A DNA stretch of 64,000 bases from a virus, in IMG/VR virus record IMGVR_UViG_3300033149_005152, positions 1-64,000 of that record; one strand, written 5' to 3'. Shown piece after piece: positions 12,613 through 48,071 of this stretch (its first letter is position 1; every line of letters begins with the position of its first letter). The translations under genes were made by a program, and so were the position numbers. The notes under the pieces are model-generated. The model searched no databases. It was given only the letters and a program-made list of their open reading frames with translations, and was not told the origin of the DNA.

Positions 12613-12883
12613 GAACCATACCTCCACCATATTGAGATTCCAATTTTGTAACATCTTCTATAAATTGCTCATCTCTTTTATATTTGTCTTTGGTTGGAAT
12701 TTTATGAACCATCTTTTTAGGAACTCTATTTAATTCCACATTCTTTCTAATACATTTACAAACTATTGCCCTTTTAACATTATCTTCTATAATATATCCT
12801 ATTCTACCCAAACCATAACAAAATTTACAGGAAGGTTTGGCATATTTTAAATATTTAGTAGGCACTTCCACATATTTCTTCAT
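12599..12883 (-). CDS. DnaJ-type zinc-finger protein
   Basis: 94 aa. CKFCYGLGRIGY ... CKC is a half DnaJ-like CxxCxGxG zinc motif. Such short proteins occur near head genes of phages with unknown role. The start overlaps the glycosyltransferase stop. Confidence 0.55.
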   Translation of the reverse strand: MKKYVEVPTKYLKYAKPSCKFCYGLGRIGYIIEDNVKRAIVCKCIRKNVELNRVPKKMVHKIPTKDKYKRDEQFIEDVTKLESQYGGGMVHADI

Positions 12884-13956
12884 TTATTTAATACCCTCTC
12901 ACATACTTTTAGAAACTCTTTAGCTGTATTATTTATATCAAACTGTTTTTTTGCTAAAAGATATTGTTTTTTTCTTAATACTTCTCTATTTTTATGTGTC
13001 TTGAGCCACACCCAAGCCTTTTCAAGAGCATCACATACAGAAGTTGCCCATCCAAATTTATATGTAAAAAATCCAAAATTATCACAACAATCAGGAACCA
13101 CTACCTGGCATCCGCAAGCCATAGCTTCTTTTTGAACCCTACTATGTGTAATAACAGAAGATAATACAATATCAGCACTTCTTAAAAATTTCTCACATTC
13201 AGGAACCATTGCGTTAATAGAACCTATACCATCTTCCATATTATAATTTGATATGTAAGAGGCCCATATTTTAAATTCTCGCTCTTTCAATTTTCTATGT
13301 GGTGCTCCAAACAAGTGTAATCTCGCCAAAGGATATTTTTCCCAAAATAACTTGTATCCCATTAATGGGACAAATGGGTCTTTATTTTCTCGCCATACAT
13401 CAAATAAAGAAACAGTTGGGCTACCGGATAAAGGAAAGGATATTCCATTATAATTATACTTTTTTAAATCAATACCAGGTGGAAGTAAACAAATATTTAT
13501 ATCTTTTCTTTTATAACATATAGCTTCAAGAAAAGGAAGATGCCTTTTCCACATAGTAACATATGCTTTCACATTTTTATTTCTGACCAAGTTAATTACA
13601 GTAGAAAATGGAGCAGGATTATTCTTATCAAATTGGTATAATTCTGTTCTCATCAATGCTTCTGGCATCGAGTGTCCAAACATGATAATCGGTGTTCCGT
13701 CCATGTTGTAAGGATTAGGAACAATTGTATGATTTATATAAAGATCAGCACTTAACGGTTGACCAACCAAAGGATCAGTATAAAAATTATCTGCAATTTT
13801 ATCGCCACCCAAAGGGCCATTATATCCTGGACTCACTATAGGAGATACTATCCTATGATCCACACCCAATCTTCTCATCGCCAAAGCAAGATCACGTGTT
13901 GTCTCATATAAACCGGAACGATTAGGACCATACATAGCAAAACTAATTATTTTCAT
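12880..13956 (-). CDS. Glycosyltransferase, GT4-like
   Basis: 358 aa of two Rossmann-like halves. The N-terminus (ISFAMYGPNRSGLYETTRDLA) is the acceptor-side loop of GT-B enzymes, and KEAMACGCQVVVPDC (about 275-290) is the nucleotide-sugar binding E-x7-E-type region, with a preceding Glu. It transfers an unknown sugar. It lies between head and connector genes with a second GT4 enzyme at 16140-17171, suggesting virion protein glycosylation. Confidence 0.8.
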   Translation of the reverse strand: MKIISFAMYGPNRSGLYETTRDLALAMRRLGVDHRIVSPIVSPGYNGPLGGDKIADNFYTDPLVGQPLSADLYINHTIVPNPYNMDGTPIIMFGHSMPEALMRTELYQFDKNNPAPFSTVINLVRNKNVKAYVTMWKRHLPFLEAICYKRKDINICLLPPGIDLKKYNYNGISFPLSGSPTVSLFDVWRENKDPFVPLMGYKLFWEKYPLARLHLFGAPHRKLKEREFKIWASYISNYNMEDGIGSINAMVPECEKFLRSADIVLSSVITHSRVQKEAMACGCQVVVPDCCDNFGFFTYKFGWATSVCDALEKAWVWLKTHKNREVLRKKQYLLAKKQFDINNTAKEFLKVCERVLNK

Positions 13957-16139: not shown

Positions 16140-17171
16140 TCATATCTCCCTTAAGATATATGCTACAGCATCCTGGGATAACTTTTCAGCATCCCTACTT
16201 TGACAAACCATCTCTCTACATTTACTAGATAAAAAAGTCATATCCTTAATTCTCATCTCTTTTACAACTGATCTAAAATTACCAATCAATTCTTCAAATC
16301 CCTTAAAAATAAATTCAGAATATATATCTTCTGCACCTTTCCAACAATGCACCATAGGAATACATCCGCATGCCATAGCTTCCATTACAGAAGCATGATA
16401 ACCTTCTTCATTTGATAAACTCAAAAAGAAATCTACGTTTTGATAAAATTTTGACATATCTTGAATATGCCCCAAAAAATTCACACGATCTTGTAAATTT
16501 AAAGCAGTAATTAAGTCTAGACAATTTTGATAATATTCAACATTTCCATAACCAGAAAAAGGATTAGCATAACTACCAGCAATATGTAATTCATATTGTA
16601 ATTCTGGTTCCTGATAATAACTAGTCATTTTTTCTCTTTGAGCGTAAACTATATCTCCTAAAAGCTGAATGGCAGTATAAAATCTTTTTTTAGGTACAAT
16701 TCTGCCAGTCATTCCTATTTTTAATGGTAATTTATAAGTTCTTGGTGTCTCTGGCATAACAAATTTAGAAATATCCACCCCCTCAGGTAATACGACCATC
16801 TTTTGGGGCGAATATTTCAAACTATACTTAGTTTGCTCTTCAAACCTTTGTTTCACATGATCGGCAATAAATATGAGTAGATTGACCTTACTCCAATCCC
16901 AAGAACTTATCTGAGAATTATAAACTTCAATCCTATGAAGACGAACGACAATAGGCTTATCACAATATTTTAATAAATCGGATAAGGGGTCTTGAGCAAA
17001 ATCAACAAATACAAAATCACACCAATTAGTTAACCGGCCAATCTGTAAATAATTAAATTTAACATCAGTTGTATGATTATATTTTTGTATTTCGCAGCCA
17101 GCATTTAAAAACGCCTTTTCTAAATTTCCAAAAAAATTAGTATTAGTAGAGATTAAAGCCATCTTTTTCAT
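16140..17171 (-). CDS. Glycosyltransferase, GT4 family
   Basis: 343 aa, GT-B fold. KIGMTGRIVPKKRF is the start of the donor-binding half, and EAMACGCIPMVHCWKGAEDI is the E-x7-E region of retaining GT4 enzymes. It follows the head-fibre gene directly and probably glycosylates a virion protein or an envelope component. Donor sugar unknown. Confidence 0.88.
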   Translation of the reverse strand: MKKMALISTNTNFFGNLEKAFLNAGCEIQKYNHTTDVKFNYLQIGRLTNWCDFVFVDFAQDPLSDLLKYCDKPIVVRLHRIEVYNSQISSWDWSKVNLLIFIADHVKQRFEEQTKYSLKYSPQKMVVLPEGVDISKFVMPETPRTYKLPLKIGMTGRIVPKKRFYTAIQLLGDIVYAQREKMTSYYQEPELQYELHIAGSYANPFSGYGNVEYYQNCLDLITALNLQDRVNFLGHIQDMSKFYQNVDFFLSLSNEEGYHASVMEAMACGCIPMVHCWKGAEDIYSEFIFKGFEELIGNFRSVVKEMRIKDMTFLSSKCREMVCQSRDAEKLSQDAVAYILREI

Positions 17172-18202: not shown

Positions 18203-20322
18203 TCAACCAGCATAACCCTTTGCCATACCTTTTTCATTTTTAATTTCCGTAGTGTATTCACCAATAATCATACCCTTCTGTGAATCACCCGTAATAGAAA
18301 CCTTTTTATGAGCAAATGATCTACCCTGTAAATTTAGGACTCTAACTCTAGGAGTCGCAGTAATAATCAAAGAACTTGCTCGCATCCACCGACACAGCAT
18401 AACTTCCAACACACCAAAAGTTCCCTCGTAATAAGAAACTAAATTACGATGTTTCATTTCCGCATTATCGGTACGTGTGCGAGTGCTGTTCCATGTATCT
18501 ATAATACGCTTCCAATTAGCATCCACAGCAATAACATCAATATCACTTCCACCATTATCCCATGCCTTTTTTGTTATACTACCCAACCAAGATTCTGTAA
18601 GAGTAGCAAGAGACTGAGAATTAGTAGAAATCCTACTCCAAAGACCCTGCATTGTCCTATATGCAGTAGCACTACCAAGAGTATTACCAGATAAAACAGA
18701 CAAGAAAGTAGCCTGCTCCAAATCACGAAGCACTTCTCGCATCCTTTGACTCTGCTGATAAGTATACTCAGATGTTATATTACCCAGCTGAGTTACTGCT
18801 TCCTGGGTACCACTGACAATAATATCTTTTTTCATGATCTGGCAATAATTAGTTTTGCGAGACCTAGGTTGCGAAATATCCAGACTTACGTCTGAACCTT
18901 CCAATGCAGTTGAGTGTAAAACTCTAAAACTTTGACCCGCAGCATAAGAGGAAGCAACAGTTCCCCCAAAACTACGAGTTACAGTAAGAGTATTAGTTGT
19001 AGAATTATAAGTTATACTATTAATCCGAACATATTCGGTATTGTCTCCAACTGTAGGCATCATAAGTACATCGCCAGGTTGGAGAAAACGTCCATCGTTA
19101 TTAGTAAGTGTTACATTATCCTCAGTTGTAGTACCCATAGCAGTTGAAGAAACAACAGTAGCAGGATTCAACACATCTTCTAACCATTCCATTTTTGTTA
19201 CTATTTGCAACTTGCAAACGAAGTAGTCATTTCTGCTACTTTCTACATATCTCTATGCAGATCGGACTATATCATCACCAAATAAGGTGGGAAGCATGTA
19301 GTCTCTGGGCAAAAAGGAAAATAAATCTAATTAATTAAATCAATATCCTTATTTTCTCTAACATTTTTAATTAACTCTAAATCGGTAGTTTCATAAGGAT
19401 GATGGTTAGGTAATTTTAAACGTCTATCACAAAACTTTAAAAGATTTTCAGCTTTATGTTTTTTTCCTACTAAATACGGTATTAATTTAGGGAGAGAATT
19501 ATAACAACGCTTTATACCTTGTATAATAATCTCATATTTAATCTTCCATTCAGGATGCCTATTATTTTTTTTTGATTGCACATAATGAGGAATCCCTAAA
19601 TAATCCAACAATTCAATAGCCTGATTAATTATAATTAAATCAGTATTAACTATAGCTACTCTAGGATTCCATCCATTTTGTTTAACTTTAGAACTGCTAC
19701 GCTTAATAATAGTTACCATCCCCTCACCGTCTATAATACCACCTAACCAAAATAATAAATTTTCCTTTCTTTGCTGCTGATTGTCTAATATCAATTGTTA
19801 TCACCTCATTAGTAAATTGATCTCTAAAGAGTTTCCAGCATATAGCTTCCTTTAATCTCCACAAATTTACCTATGGAGAACATTACGTGCGGGATAAGGA
19901 GCATCACCAATTCTATCAAGAAAAGGAGTTTCATAGGGGCTTATCATCCCTATTTCTTCTGCTACATCCTCAGCAGTAACGTCAAAAACACCACTATCAT
20001 ATAAAGCTTTCAATTTTGTTATCGTGAAATCGTTTAAATTTCACTTCTTATAGTTTCCTATAAGTTCAGACTATTTCTTTCCTTTCGGAGAGGGCACTCG
20101 TGCTGATATTACCGGCATATCAAAAAAATGACTTAGCCTCGATCAATAGTCGTTGAACCCACCTAACAATTTCTTGTAAGGCTTGGCTTAGCGTTACCAT
20201 ATATAAATAAATCTTCATATTTATACTTAGGCTTCCACTAAATTCACCCTCTTTGCATCCATGAGCAAAAATCATATATCAATTTACTCATGATGGGGCT
20301 ATAACTAACCCGTAAAAGCCAA
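18203..20322 (-). CDS. Major capsid protein, split by two group I introns
   Basis: Join of exon 1 (20308-20322), exon 2 (19873-20022) and exon 3 (18203-19189), giving 383 aa. The start is TTG after AGAGGTGA. The spliced product reads MAFTGITKLKALYDSG..., then ISPYETPFLDRIG, and the exon 2/3 junction recreates NVLH|EWLEDVLNP, the conserved HEW(L/Q)xD region of the SU10/DUF5309 HK97-fold capsid family. Splice sites are fixed by P1 pairing with U.G at each 5' site and P10 at each 3' site; both junctions are in phase 0. Portal and an acidic scaffold-like gene lie upstream. Without splicing only short fragments would be made. Confidence 0.88.
19190..19872 (-). mobile_element. Group I intron 2 of capsid gene, with endonuclease
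   Basis: 683 nt. P1 is exon CTCCAT with intron GTGGAG (U.G at the splice site). P3 is GGAAGC with GCTTCC, P8 is CACC with GGTG, and P7 is GACTA (in CAGAGACTACA) with TAGTC (in ATATAGTCCG), the R and S core elements. The last base is the G at 19190. P10 is 4 bp (GAAU with AUUU). The endonuclease gene lies between the P4-P6 region and P7. Confidence 0.88.
19327..19794 (-). CDS. LAGLIDADG homing endonuclease
   Basis: 155 aa from TTG, preceded by GAGGTGAT. Residues 17-26 (LGGIIDGEGM) are a single LAGLIDADG motif, so the enzyme should act as a homodimer. It would cut intronless alleles of the capsid gene at the exon 2/3 junction, and may aid splicing as a maturase. Reading frame intact. Confidence 0.88.
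   Translation of the reverse strand: MILDNQQQRKENLLFWLGGIIDGEGMVTIIKRSSSKVKQNGWNPRVAIVNTDLIIINQAIELLDYLGIPHYVQSKKNNRHPEWKIKYEIIIQGIKRCYNSLPKLIPYLVGKKHKAENLLKFCDRRLKLPNHHPYETTDLELIKNVRENKDIDLIN
20023..20307 (-). mobile_element. Group I intron 1 of capsid gene, ORF-less
   Basis: 285 nt, no ORF. P1 is exon GGGT with intron GCCC (U.G at the cut). P10 is 5 bp: exon 2 start AUAAC with intron GUUAU. P7 is GACTAT (in TTCAACGACTATT) with ATAGTC. P9 is TTATAG-GAAA-CTATAA. A further hairpin GTGAAAT/ATTTCAC lies at the 3' end before the terminal G at 20023. It lies after only five codons. Confidence 0.85.
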
Positions 20323-20383
20323 AAAAATCACCTCTAAATTTTACTTTTCATAATGAAAAATATTGTTATTTTTTATTTTTTTA

Positions 20384-27184: not shown

Positions 27185-30100
27185 TTAAAAACATTCTTTA
27201 CTACCACAAAAATTACAATATGAACAACCATCTGAATCAATATACATCATATTACCACACTTACAAAAAACACCAGACAAAGCATCTTGTTCTATAGGTT
27301 CTTCTTTTTCCAATTGTGATATATCCTCCAAAATAACATCTGCAATGGCATCAGGACCAGAAGAATATATTTTACCATTACTAAAAGAAGTAGCTTTACC
27401 TCCTATACTATCTAATTGATCAACAACATCCCTAACATCAGTCCCATTTTTTAATGCCAATGTAATTAATCTACCAACAGCCTCAGACCACGCCGTAACA
27501 TCTGATCCTCCCTTACCAAAATTCAAAAACGTTTCTCTCAACCTACCACGTCCCTTTAAAATATCACAAATTATTCTCCTATCCTTCTCACATAATGAAT
27601 AATTTTTAGTAACATAAGCATTACCATGCGGACTTTTTACTTTAACTGTCTGACCATACATTATATCAAATCTAGTCTTAAAATCATCTGGTAATACGGA
27701 CTCCCATGCTTGAATTCTACGACTATCCTGTCTATAAACAGTAATCCCTTTCACTCCTTGATCATGAGAATCCATAAAAGCCCTGGATACATCTTCAACA
27801 GTAGCATCCTTAGACAAATTAATTGTTTTTGAGATACCAGAATCAATATATTTTTGAAATACTCCAACCATTTTTACGTGATCTTCGGGCTTAATTTCTG
27901 AAGATTTCACAAAATAAGACGGAAGCTCATATTTACCAGTTTTTTCTCTATAATTCTTTACAAGTGGGTGCAAAACTTTTAATTTATTGTCTATTATATT
28001 CTTAGAAAATTCCCATTCAAAATTAGGTTCAATACCACTTGAACATCCAGCAATTATACTACAACTCCCAGTGGGAGCCATACAAGATACAACGGCATTA
28101 TCCGATCTTCTATAATTATTACAACGCCGTTTAAAAAACTCCATAAATTTTTCAGCAAAATCTATAGACTCTCGAGAACCATATTTTAATCCTAATTTTA
28201 TTAACAAATCTCCCCACCCCATCAACCCCAGTCCAATCTTTCTTGTTTCTTTTGTCATCTTTTCGATCTCTGGAGTAGGAAAAGATGAAACGTCAATTAC
28301 ATTATTTAAAAATTGAATACCAAATTTTATTAATTTGTCAAATAAATCCCAATTTATTGAAGTCATACCTTCAGCCCATACGGGAATATCAACCAATTTA
28401 CTTACGTCTATACTACCAAGATTACAATTATGAACAATAAAACCGTTAGCAATAAAATGTTTAGACTTGGGAATTATAAGGTCATATACCTCACGAAGCC
28501 CAATCTTATTCACACTTTTTATCCTAACTAAATCTTGGATTTTATCATATCTATATTTTGGATTCCAATTAAATTTATTTAATTTATAAGAATTTAAAAA
28601 CCCAATTAAACGCATAAACCTAAAAGCATTTCCCTGAGTAACTGCCAACTTATATTGATTCCTTCTATTCAAACTTTCGTCAAATTTGCTTTCATAAATA
28701 GTAGAATGAATCCCGAATCTAATAAGCAAAATTTGAATATCAATCAAAAATTTCTTACTAGTACTAAATAAAAAAACTTGATTATTTTGTTTACCCGAAA
28801 TAGTACCATCTGCCGTAAATAACCCCTTTAAAAAGGAAATTTGAAAAACGGGATTTTCCATCCATATACATGTTGGTAATCTTCTTTCATATGCCTTTCC
28901 TAATTTAACTCCCAATTTCAATAATTTATCTCGTGCATCTTTTTTACCAGTTTGTAACTGATAATTATTAGGAGTATTATACATAGGGACTATATCATAA
29001 CATTCAAAATAATCCAAAAAAACTGGTAATAATCTATCTTTTACTTCAAAATCACCATCTTTTTCATTAAATGATATGCCAACTATTTTCTCAGTAAACC
29101 AACCGTCCCCATGTATCCAACCCAACATTTCGGCAACCAGATTATTTTCTTTTTCCGGAATAACATAAGAATTTAATGGAATACGAAGCAATTGTTCCTT
29201 ATTAAATTCTGTAACAGGAAGCCAATTTCCATCTTTATCTAAAAATAAATGATCTGAAGTTGTTTTTATTTTATATCCCTCAAAAGTCTCTATTTCATAA
29301 ACCACTTTTTTACCACGTTTTAGACTTTTATAAACTGTTTCATAAAAGGGCATTCCCTCCAATTCAACAGCAACCATATCCCCCTTCTTAACATTCTTTA
29401 TGGCTTTCCAGCCGTCTTCACATAAAATTAAACTATCCTCATCCAAACATGATTCGTTAGGATAAAGAGGAAGCTCAGAACAAGGATTAGTTGCAGTTAT
29501 TAGACCATATTCTTTTAAAAGAGGATTATTTTTATTAATATTATCTAAATAAATTAAGCCAGGTTCGCCATTTAACCAAGCATTTTCACAAATTTTATCC
29601 CATATTTTCTTCACAGGAACTTCTGCAAATCCTCCTCCACCCCATCCATCAAAAAAATCATAACTATCATGAGAAAAAAGTAAATTATTAGTTTTTAAAG
29701 CCTGAAAAAACCATTCATCAACAGCGACAGATATATTTAAATTAGATAAACTATTTTCATTCCTCTTACAATCAATAAATTCCAAAATATCAGGATGCCT
29801 ATAATTTAAAATAGCTATCATCGCTGCACGTCTTAATCCACCTTGTTTTATTTGTTCAGAAAATACATCAAACATATTCATAAAACTCACAGGGCCAGAT
29901 GAAAACCCCATTGTGCTTTTAATTCTTGATCCTTTCGGTCTTAATGGGCTAAAATCTATTCCTACTCCACCACCAACTTTAAATATTTTAGCCGTATCGC
30001 ACAGAGTTTTTAAAATACTTTCTAAAGAATCTTCTATACCTAAAACAAAACAAGCAGATAAATTATTTAGAGGTAATCCTGCATTCATGAGACAGGGAGA

Positions 30101-31636
30101 ATTATGAGTTACAAAACCATTTGCTATATAATTATGAGTTTTATCCACAGTTAGGTCAAATACAGGAGATATGAACTTCTTCCCAATATATATTTTCTCG
30201 TATAAATTATCTTGTAAATCACATAATTTATAAGTATAAGAATCCCTAAAATCAGAAATTTTATTAGCTAATTCCAAACATTTTTCCGTAGAAATAGCAA
30301 TTAAATCTTTATTCTCTTTACGACCACAAAATGGAGAAAACAATCTATAAGTAGCCATTCCCCTATTCTTACTTTGTCTATACCATTCTAAAATTTTATA
30401 CTTTTGATTAGGAATTCTCTGATTACTCTTCCCAACTTTTGAAAGCGAGGATAAAAAAGCTTTTTTACGTTCACTAATAAATCCTATTATCTTCTCAAAT
30501 CGCTCTAAAAAAGAAGAATAAATTCTCAATCTATAACCATTAACTTTACCACATTTTCTTTTTTCGCTAACTTTAGAATAAATACCCACCCCCAACAATA
30601 ATAATTGAACCTGCCTAATAAATTCTTCTGAAGAACTATAAAACTCTATATTTCCCTCAACTGATTTATCTTTATTTATACGTTCTTTATTCACGCAACC
30701 ATCCGCCTCAAATAAACCCCTCAAAAATCCACAAATTGAATCAAAATCACCTTCCAAAATCGCTGGTGGAATTTTCAAATTATCTGATGGCTTAATTAAA
30801 TTATTAATCTCCATAAATTCCCTAAAAGCCACTCGTGCAAACGAGATAACACCACAATTTTTATCTTTGATTTTAGTAAATTTAGGAGTAATCCCAAAAA
30901 TTCTAAAAATCAAATTATTTAAATACTCGCCCAAATCAACATCATCATAAAAATATGCTAACTTCAAATTTGAATTTTTATCTATATGCCCATCACCAAA
31001 ATAATAACCCAATAATTCTGCAAAATAAACATCTATATAATCTGGCAATTCAATATATTTTCTATTTGATCCATATCCATCCAGCGGAAATAATTCTTTA
31101 TTTCCTTTATTCAAAACATACTTTTCACTTCTATTACATAAAAATCCCATTTTTAAAGAAAGATAATCGTATTCTAAATCAATATCTTTTAACATTTTCC
31201 AAAGCAAATCTCCATTTTTATCAACCACCAAAAAACTATGTTCCGGAGTAGCATAAATCTGATAACCCGAAGTGGAAACAATTTCCCAAACTTCTTTTTT
31301 TCCATTTTTCCAAAATTTCCTCAACTCTCCATATCCCACATGAGAATAAAGAGATAAATTACCAAGTTCCTCCAAATCAACAACCCTTTTCAATCCTTTT
31401 CCAGTAGCTATCAATGAATCGGGACCAACACAATTTGGAGTAAAATATAAATTCTTCAATATCCACTGAAATTCTTTTTCTAAACCACCATCTCCATTAG
31501 ATATATGTTTCGCTATTCGGTCAAACATTTGCTCAGGAGTTTCTATAATATTACCTTCAACATCCTTTTGAAGATAACGCTTTTTTAAAACGAGTAAGGC
31601 ATTTTCACTTAAATTTTGCAATATATCACTCTCCAT
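27185..31636 (-). CDS. nrdJ: Class II (B12-dependent) ribonucleotide reductase with two inteins
   Basis: 1483-aa precursor. Removing the inteins (69-512 and 730-1070) leaves 698 aa. Family marks: PNSPCLMNAG, KVGGGVGIDFSPLRPKGS, NPCSELPLYPNES-CNLGSID and MAPTGSCSIIAG. A TSCPD-like domain follows, then a C-terminal zinc ribbon (CKCGNMM ... CNFCGSKEC). No small-subunit gene is nearby, consistent with the adenosylcobalamin class. It reduces ribonucleotides for phage DNA synthesis. Both inteins lie at catalytic or substrate-binding segments. No strong RBS before the ATG. Confidence 0.92.
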   Translation of the reverse strand: MESDILQNLSENALLVLKKRYLQKDVEGNIIETPEQMFDRIAKHISNGDGGLEKEFQWILKNLYFTPNCVGPDSLIATGKGLKRVVDLEELGNLSLYSHVGYGELRKFWKNGKKEVWEIVSTSGYQIYATPEHSFLVVDKNGDLLWKMLKDIDLEYDYLSLKMGFLCNRSEKYVLNKGNKELFPLDGYGSNRKYIELPDYIDVYFAELLGYYFGDGHIDKNSNLKLAYFYDDVDLGEYLNNLIFRIFGITPKFTKIKDKNCGVISFARVAFREFMEINNLIKPSDNLKIPPAILEGDFDSICGFLRGLFEADGCVNKERINKDKSVEGNIEFYSSSEEFIRQVQLLLLGVGIYSKVSEKRKCGKVNGYRLRIYSSFLERFEKIIGFISERKKAFLSSLSKVGKSNQRIPNQKYKILEWYRQSKNRGMATYRLFSPFCGRKENKDLIAISTEKCLELANKISDFRDSYTYKLCDLQDNLYEKIYIGKKFISPVFDLTVDKTHNYIANGFVTHNSPCLMNAGLPLNNLSACFVLGIEDSLESILKTLCDTAKIFKVGGGVGIDFSPLRPKGSRIKSTMGFSSGPVSFMNMFDVFSEQIKQGGLRRAAMIAILNYRHPDILEFIDCKRNENSLSNLNISVAVDEWFFQALKTNNLLFSHDSYDFFDGWGGGGFAEVPVKKIWDKICENAWLNGEPGLIYLDNINKNNPLLKEYGLITATNPCSELPLYPNESCLDEDSLILCEDGWKAIKNVKKGDMVAVELEGMPFYETVYKSLKRGKKVVYEIETFEGYKIKTTSDHLFLDKDGNWLPVTEFNKEQLLRIPLNSYVIPEKENNLVAEMLGWIHGDGWFTEKIVGISFNEKDGDFEVKDRLLPVFLDYFECYDIVPMYNTPNNYQLQTGKKDARDKLLKLGVKLGKAYERRLPTCIWMENPVFQISFLKGLFTADGTISGKQNNQVFLFSTSKKFLIDIQILLIRFGIHSTIYESKFDESLNRRNQYKLAVTQGNAFRFMRLIGFLNSYKLNKFNWNPKYRYDKIQDLVRIKSVNKIGLREVYDLIIPKSKHFIANGFIVHNCNLGSIDVSKLVDIPVWAEGMTSINWDLFDKLIKFGIQFLNNVIDVSSFPTPEIEKMTKETRKIGLGLMGWGDLLIKLGLKYGSRESIDFAEKFMEFFKRRCNNYRRSDNAVVSCMAPTGSCSIIAGCSSGIEPNFEWEFSKNIIDNKLKVLHPLVKNYREKTGKYELPSYFVKSSEIKPEDHVKMVGVFQKYIDSGISKTINLSKDATVEDVSRAFMDSHDQGVKGITVYRQDSRRIQAWESVLPDDFKTRFDIMYGQTVKVKSPHGNAYVTKNYSLCEKDRRIICDILKGRGRLRETFLNFGKGGSDVTAWSEAVGRLITLALKNGTDVRDVVDQLDSIGGKATSFSNGKIYSSGPDAIADVILEDISQLEKEEPIEQDALSGVFCKCGNMMYIDSDGCSYCNFCGSKECF
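28427..29449 (-). mobile_element. Intein 2 of the ribonucleotide reductase
   Basis: 341 aa (precursor residues 730-1070). It starts with Cys (CLDEDSLI) and ends in FIANGFIVHN before extein Cys1071 of CNLGS. DOD endonuclease motifs are at 837-847 (MLGWIHGDGWF) and 936-946 (LKGLFTADGTI). All splicing residues are present. Confidence 0.93.
30101..31432 (-). mobile_element. Intein 1 of the ribonucleotide reductase
   Basis: 444 aa (precursor residues 69-512). It starts with Cys (CVGPDSLIATGKG), has the TxxH-like B block (ATPEHSF), and ends in YIANGFVTHN before extein Ser513 of SPCLMNAG. LAGLIDADG motifs are at 208-218 (LLGYYFGDGHI) and 305-315 (LRGLFEADGCV), so the homing endonuclease looks intact. 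Confidence 0.93.
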
Positions 31637-47187: not shown

Positions 47188-47206
47188 TTCAATTACCCAA
47201 ATAATA

Positions 47207-47232
47207 GAGCGGGACAAAAACTTATCCCGCTC
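47207..47232 (-). terminator. GC-rich hairpin upstream of the UvsW-like gene
   Basis: GAGCGGGA and TCCCGCTC form an 8-bp stem around a 10-base loop, followed by TATTATTT on the minus strand. It lies after the AT-hook gene and may terminate or attenuate that transcript. Confidence 0.6.
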
Positions 47233-47249
47233 TTATTAATTTATTAAAT

Positions 47250-48071
47250 TTAATCAGAATCAACTTCCCGCATTTTTATTCCAGCAGCTAACAAACCCTT
47301 TTGCGTATAGGCAGCATTGAATTTTTTTCCAGCCTTCCCCGAAAATTTCAACTCAACCTTTTTTGGAGAAGGTTTCCTTACAACTTTCCCCTCTATTATC
47401 TCATCCTTATAATTCACATAAACAGAAGTATGTTTATCAAGCATATCAATTTCAGCTGGAACTAAATCATCAGGCTCATCCTCTTCATCAGGCTCATCTT
47501 CTTCATCAAGCTCATCTTCTTCATCAAGCTCATCTTCCTCATCAGGCTCATCTTCTTCATCAAGCTCATCTTCTTCATCAGGCTCATCTTCATATTTAAC
47601 TTCAATCCCAAATTCATTATAAGCTTCTTCGTCATAAGTTTCCACATCATCATCATCCCACTCAATAGTAACCACCCTTTTATTCCTCTTTCCTCCTCCC
47701 TCAACGGCCGTAACCACACCCATCTGTCCAGTATTTGGGTCTCTTACAATATCATCAACCTCCAATTCTGAAAAATCAGGGTGTTCAAAACTAATTCCCC
47801 CTTCATCAGTCTCATCTTCCCCATTATCCCCACCAAGATCAGCATTATAAACATCTTCTTCAATATCAAGATCAGGAGGCTCAACATTAGAAAGAACTTT
47901 AGCAAGACTTTTAAATGATTTTTCAGTTCTCTCCGATAATTTATCCACTAAATCAATTAATACAGTCAATGATTCCTGAATCGTCTCAAAAACACTTTTC
48001 TCAACATTCCTTTCTACATTTTTCATAATAGATTTTTTTTCAGCTACCTTAGGTCTGCCCCGTTTTGCCAT
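47250..48071 (-). CDS. AT-hook protein with acidic repeats
   Basis: 273 aa. AT-hook MAKRGRPKV at residues 1-9, a helical region, a Tudor/KOW-like segment (DIVRDPNTGQMGVV ... VTIEWDDDDVETY), then about eight DEEDE[LP] repeats encoded by 18-base DNA repeats, and a basic beta C-terminal domain. First gene after the promoter at 48129-48156. It may bind AT-rich phage DNA or serve as a histone-like or transcription factor. Confidence 0.65.
   Translation of the reverse strand: MAKRGRPKVAEKKSIMKNVERNVEKSVFETIQESLTVLIDLVDKLSERTEKSFKSLAKVLSNVEPPDLDIEEDVYNADLGGDNGEDETDEGGISFEHPDFSELEVDDIVRDPNTGQMGVVTAVEGGGKRNKRVVTIEWDDDDVETYDEEAYNEFGIEVKYEDEPDEEDELDEEDEPDEEDELDEEDELDEEDEPDEEDEPDDLVPAEIDMLDKHTSVYVNYKDEIIEGKVVRKPSPKKVELKFSGKAGKKFNAAYTQKGLLAAGIKMREVDSD
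47468..47590 (-). repeat. 18-bp tandem repeats within coding sequence
   Basis: About seven imperfect copies of an 18-base unit (TCATCAAGCTCATCTTCT on the + strand) encode the DEEDE[LP] repeats. A coding repeat, not a regulatory array. Confidence 0.75.

Follow-up and report, generated by a model that had tools for sequence, protein, structure and literature searches.

We are confident that the stretch of viral DNA analysed here (the window, 64,000 nucleotides of a metagenomic virus record) carries an SU10-type major capsid gene whose three exons are separated by two group I introns, that would be expressed after splicing as a protein of 379 amino acids, and whose second intron contains a probable homing endonuclease gene. 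A preliminary description of the window had already proposed the three exons and two introns, and its proposal is supported here by protein homology, by matches to Rfam, by the pairing of the expected helices and by related introns whose ends could be mapped. The exons lie in phase on the minus strand (Table 1).

Table 1. Coordinates of the split capsid gene, its introns and their paired elements in the window.
Feature	Position	Strand	Basis or remark
Probable ribosome-binding site, AGAGGTGA	20328..20335	-	sequence; 5 nt upstream of the TTG start
Exon 1, 5 codons, (M)AFTG, start TTG	20308..20322	-	homologue start M-x-F-[TS]-G
Predicted intron 1, group I, 297 nt	20011..20307	-	RF00028; Javan576 3' end; gapless homologue N-termini
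Intron 1 P1	20311-20308 with 20299-20296	-	pairing check
Intron 1 P3	20251-20247 with 20094-20090	-	Rfam alignment, pairing check
Intron 1 P7, GACUAU with AUAGUC	20151-20146 with 20074-20069	-	Rfam alignment, pairing check
Exon 2, 46 codons, KALYDSG...NVLH	19873..20010	-	homologues
Predicted intron 2, group I, 683 nt, ORF in P6 region	19190..19872	-	RF00028; helices; homologue join
Intron 2 P3	19850-19845 with 19295-19290	-	pairing check
Intron 2 P5a	19821-19815 with 19796-19790 (span 19790..19821)	-	BpSp comparison
ORF in intron 2, 155 aa, probable single-motif LAGLIDADG homing endonuclease	19327..19794	-	motif WLGGIIDGEG
Intron 2 P7, GACUA with UAGUC	19303-19299 with 19269-19265	-	pairing check
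Intron 2 P8	19289-19286 with 19279-19276	-	pairing check
Exon 3, 328 codons and stop, EWLEDVLNP...KGYAG	18203..19189	-	Pfam SU10_MCP; phrog_1328

The open reading frame at 18203-19210 encodes an SU10-type capsid protein that lacks its N-terminus, and the missing part is supplied upstream by 20308-20322 and 19873-20010. As the preliminary description had it, two upstream exons restore this end, the first of five codons; the second has 46 codons rather than the 50 assigned to it. Exon 3 alone scores 183.4 bits against Pfam SU10_MCP (PF17236, cut-off 24.1), and a joined form of 383 amino acids, made with the originally proposed splice site, scores 222.2 bits. In PHROGs, exon 3 belongs to the major head proteins (phrog_1328), and its neighbours are the portal and large terminase genes. 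Five intronless homologues from a scan of viral contigs (L010, L011, L013, L014 and L015) align with the joined protein from end to end at 40-53% identity, the outcome that the preliminary description had named as a check, and we assign the protein to the SU10_MCP family on these alignments and the Pfam score. The exon 2/3 join, VLH/EWLED, matches the intronless homologues exactly, including the LHEWLEDVLNP signature noted earlier, and the exon 1/2 join is predicted as MAFTG/KALYD (N-terminus AFTGKALYD); the peptide NVLHEWLEDVLNP spans a join of the predicted protein.

A second scan of viral contigs gave 59 homologous loci, and another, of bacterial and archaeal genomes, gave 42, of which 34 are planctomycetes by record title. 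Altogether 180 homologue loci were examined for the pattern F-[TSN]-G, 0-12 free residues, [KRLIVAM][AS]x[YHF] and a downstream H[EQ]W. Every one of the 58 distinct N-termini that fit has zero free residues, reading F-x-G-[KRL]-[AS] without a gap; the remaining loci have truncated or other N-termini, are uninformative on this point and were not counted. An earlier, stricter pattern had given 65 matches, 57 of them distinct. No group I intron reached the Rfam gathering score in the homologue loci scanned (6, then 20), so neither intron has been seen at its capsid site in a relative. One locus considered as an intron-bearing relative, L191, matches residues 1-60 only; it reads through HEWLED before its frame breaks and thus has no intron at the equivalent site. 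No confirmed relative came out of scans of viral contigs that used the terminase or the endonuclease ORF as query.

Translation of the unspliced RNA would stop at UAG directly after exon 1 and at AGG UAA after exon 2. Since an in-frame stop lies at or one codon past each 5' splice site, such RNA would yield no complete capsid protein, and virion production would be expected to depend on splicing. Group I introns are removed in two steps. According to our reading, one RNA would be transcribed across the three exons, in each ribozyme guanosine would attack the 5' splice site at the U.G pair and the terminal G would serve at the 3' site, and the removal of both introns would produce the mRNA for the 379-amino-acid capsid. 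The intron 2 endonuclease would in turn copy its intron into uninterrupted capsid genes; intron 1 is without such a gene. Splicing, its self-catalysis and the activity of the endonuclease are here inferred from sequence.

With both introns in phase 0 and a length of 138 nt for exon 2, the joining of exon 1 directly to exon 3 would remain in frame and give a protein of 333 amino acids without the N-terminal arm. We consider it unlikely that a notable share of the RNA takes this form alongside full splicing. Exon skipping has been reported for the SIOphi terminase and for Twort orf142 in the relevant passages of PMC11878797, but the arm is kept in all 58 fitting homologues, and every exon with a length divisible by three would allow in-frame skipping as a matter of chance. 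One may further speculate that the introns act as a capsid switch, in which splicing and capsid synthesis compete and the joining of exon 1 to exon 3 supplies a second, arm-less form, an idea to which we give a low probability. The competition would arise because an initiating ribosome on the five-codon exon 1, given the size of its footprint, should cover the 5' splice site. Pairing estimates for the start region show the ribosome site about equally open before and after splicing; most of the first bases of that region are paired in both states and positions 9-15 are freer after splicing, from which we draw no conclusion.

The assignment of intron 1 to group I begins with its match to RF00028, which scores 62.5 bits (E 1.8e-13) over 20047-20325, above the gathering score of 50. 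The alignment contains the core helices and an insert between P7 and P3, a feature of subgroup IA. The U.G at the 5' splice site (GGGU/GCCC), the terminal G and the joins that restore the homologous protein are further grounds for the assignment. The P7, P8 and P9 elements reported earlier were found in both introns, as was P3; a G precedes each 3' exon, and both predicted joins are in phase, likewise as described before. In a search of the whole record, RF00028 returned only the weaker intron 2, and intron 1 appeared at 62.5 bits (20047-20325) with cmscan; an initial whole-record pass can thus overlook strong matches. We saw no endonuclease gene in intron 1, the sole ORF of at least 40 amino acids within it being a 51-amino-acid frame (20120-20275) that we take as chance. 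Unconstrained folding of each intron recovered the expected helices in part, and we do not count it as evidence.

By blastn at E up to 0.1, DNA similar to intron 1 occurs in 219 phage records, of which 132 are by host Staphylococcus and 63 Streptococcus phages, the top match being Streptococcus phage Javan576 (79% over positions 229-297). The hints on the host thus point in different ways, to Staphylococcus and Streptococcus from the relatives of intron 1 and mainly to planctomycetes from the bacterial and archaeal capsid homologues. In the Staphylococcus phage SapYZU04, two successive intron-like 3' domains lie within about 400 nt (L148:560-1000); this unannotated stretch between orf92 and orf93 perhaps holds a tiny exon flanked by two group I introns.

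The 3' splice site of intron 1 had originally been placed at 20023/20022, 12 nt too early. We place it at 20011/20010, after ...AACAAAATTG, at the next in-phase G, because the 58 homologue N-termini are gapless; the joined protein is shortened accordingly from 383 to 379 amino acids. The Javan576 intron provides a second line of evidence. It interrupts the portal gene, and the intronless phiS10 matches the Javan576 locus (L143) up to position 671, and the match resumes at 971 without any gain or loss of bases. Its end, ...ACGATAACAAAATTG (also given as ...CGATAACAAAATTG), is identical to that of intron 1 at the corrected site. The two introns share their 3' domain and last bases and both follow a 5' exon ending in GGGT, whereas the Javan576 intron lies in a portal gene, has 299 nt and aligns poorly over its 5' two thirds. 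In the Staphylococcus phage StB12, the alignment to StB27 resumes immediately past ...CGTAACAAATTTG, with a less exact 5' boundary, at which 21 nt of StB27 are unaligned. That intron 1 instead ends after ...TTTCACG, giving the protein of 383 amino acids with ITKL after MAFTG, is very improbable. This site is also in phase and preceded by a G, and the P10 pairing of the preliminary description (UUAU/AUAA, four pairs with one unpaired A) belongs to it, while inspection by eye gave no P10 adjacent to the corrected site, only one of four pairs (AGUU/AGCU) that is displaced and has small loops, which counts against the correction. ITKL is present, however, in none of the 58 fitting N-termini, and the ends of the bounded Javan576 intron and of intron 2 (...GTAACAAAAATG) argue for the corrected site.

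For intron 2 the Rfam check proposed in the preliminary description, which intron 1 passed clearly, gave a match below the gathering score (34.8 bits against 50, over 19243-19448), with an E of 3.7e-5 in 64 kb. The model aligned the 3' part (P8, the 3' strand of P7, and P9) and placed the 5' part into the ORF; the alignment is broken because this ORF lies in P6. We do not regard the Rfam match of either intron as chance. The strands of P1, P3, P4, P5, P5a, P6, P7, P8, P9, P9.1 and P9.2 were chosen by eye and pair in a scripted check, which leaves the placement of the shortest strings unproven. We classify intron 2 as group I on this by-eye P3-P9 core, the U.G at its 5' site (CUCCAU/GUGGAG, as first described), its terminal G and the exact in-phase join. 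Comparison with the Bacillus phage BpSp adds covariation: the P4/P5 stretch is near-identical, and P5a, although 6 of its 7 pairs are altered on both sides, retains its pairing, as in compensatory change. The gene that hosts the BpSp intron was looked for, and no identification was made. Among the blastn relatives listed for intron 2, matches are weak (E about 0.06), mostly to Staphylococcus phages and in the 3' domain.

The ORF of intron 2 probably encodes a homing endonuclease, although its filing among the known families is uncertain. It matches phrog_5046, a family labelled HNH (E 4.1e-12), falls just below the cut-off for Pfam LAGLIDADG_3 (21.6 bits against 22.5) and resembles I-PanMI weakly (E 0.0033); there was no match in NCBIfam and none by tblastn in phages at E up to 0.01. 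A structure model from the single sequence had a mean pLDDT of 46.6 and was unusable. The TTG start is preceded by GAGGTGAT at 19807-19800 and falls within the 3' strand of P5a, and the first codons overlap strands of P4 and P6. Because of this overlap, translation of the ORF should disturb the ribozyme.

It could also be that the RNA is not spliced at all and that the gene is broken, or that a shortened capsid is made from the ATG (19192) or TTG (19210) before exon 3, but we hold this to be scarcely credible. An open frame of 335 amino acids does begin at TTG 19210 and has an in-frame ATG immediately ahead of exon 3; yet the N-terminus that this frame lacks is kept in 58 of 58 fitting homologues and is encoded in order upstream, and the ribozyme cores sit exactly between the capsid pieces. 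A gene annotated in the Arcanobacterium phage TPWB06 likewise begins with the ATG of an intron-like 3' motif, which by analogy suggests a trap for annotation rather than a start. That unrelated pieces were joined in a metagenomic contig (98,585 bases) has a negligible probability, as the exons are ordered, on one strand and in phase, and the order of terminase, portal and capsid equals that of the intronless L011, where the order portal, scaffold-position gene and capsid is also found. An intein is ruled out by the stop codons between the exons, and a frameshift or simple pseudogene by the ribozyme cores exactly between conserved exons.

Elsewhere in the window, 27185-31636 (minus strand) encodes a class II ribonucleotide reductase (NrdJ_Z, 505 bits) that also contains two stretches each of Intein_splicing and LAGLIDADG_3. 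These are probably two inteins, so that the phage would have at least four self-splicing elements. Two glycosyltransferase-like genes lie among the virion genes on the minus strand, one at 16140-17171 (phrog_2170, E 3.9e-11) and one at 12880-13956 (a weak Pfam match below the cut-off). A weak match to the L20 leader at 47195-47279 (minus strand; 28.4 bits against 58.7, E 0.17) is likely due to chance.

Introns in phage capsid genes, even several per gene, have already been published, and the present case adds one of the SU10 type. The major capsid gene of mycobacteriophage LittleE, as presented in the intron passages of PMC3706429, likewise holds an intron with an endonuclease ORF inside, a G before the 3' exon and a 5' exon ending in U; its authors consider it most likely group I and cite another in Tuc2009. 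Unlike the gene described here, LittleE has one intron of ~819 bp in an HK97-type capsid gene, and its splicing was shown by RT-PCR and N-terminal sequencing. Closer in number are the several group I introns in the capsid gene of the Zeta-group crAss-like phage cMAG OLRF01000054, although that gene, in a phage of another order, is in five pieces, with group I domains in three of four intervening segments, and is predicted from sequence; in Delta-group crAss-like phages group I introns are typical in the capsid gene (capsid passages of PMC7886860). Twort orf142 and the SIOphi terminase also have several group I introns per gene, these being tail tube and terminase genes in which exon skipping was observed (PMC11878797, in part). 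Jug phages carry a mean of 18.5 group I introns per genome, according to the portion of PMC12363816 consulted. An intron-split SU10 capsid gene was not described in the literature searched, mostly at the level of titles and the first lines of abstracts, and the passages of PMC10286775 matched by SU10 major capsid protein and intron were unrelated.

What is unusual in the present gene is its five-codon first exon, together with a second exon that can be skipped in frame. The locus shows how gene finders can mis-call split genes: because intron 1 ends in an in-frame TTG (20011-20013) and intron 2 in an in-frame ATG (19190-19192), exons 2 and 3 each resemble an independent gene that has its own start codon. 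The natural five-codon exon also offers a site for testing competition between translation initiation and splicing. Under the capsid-switch hypothesis, ribozyme splicing would let the phage produce two forms of its capsid or time capsid synthesis. Phages produce capsid protein in very large quantity, and both ribozyme steps would therefore need to be efficient for virions to form.
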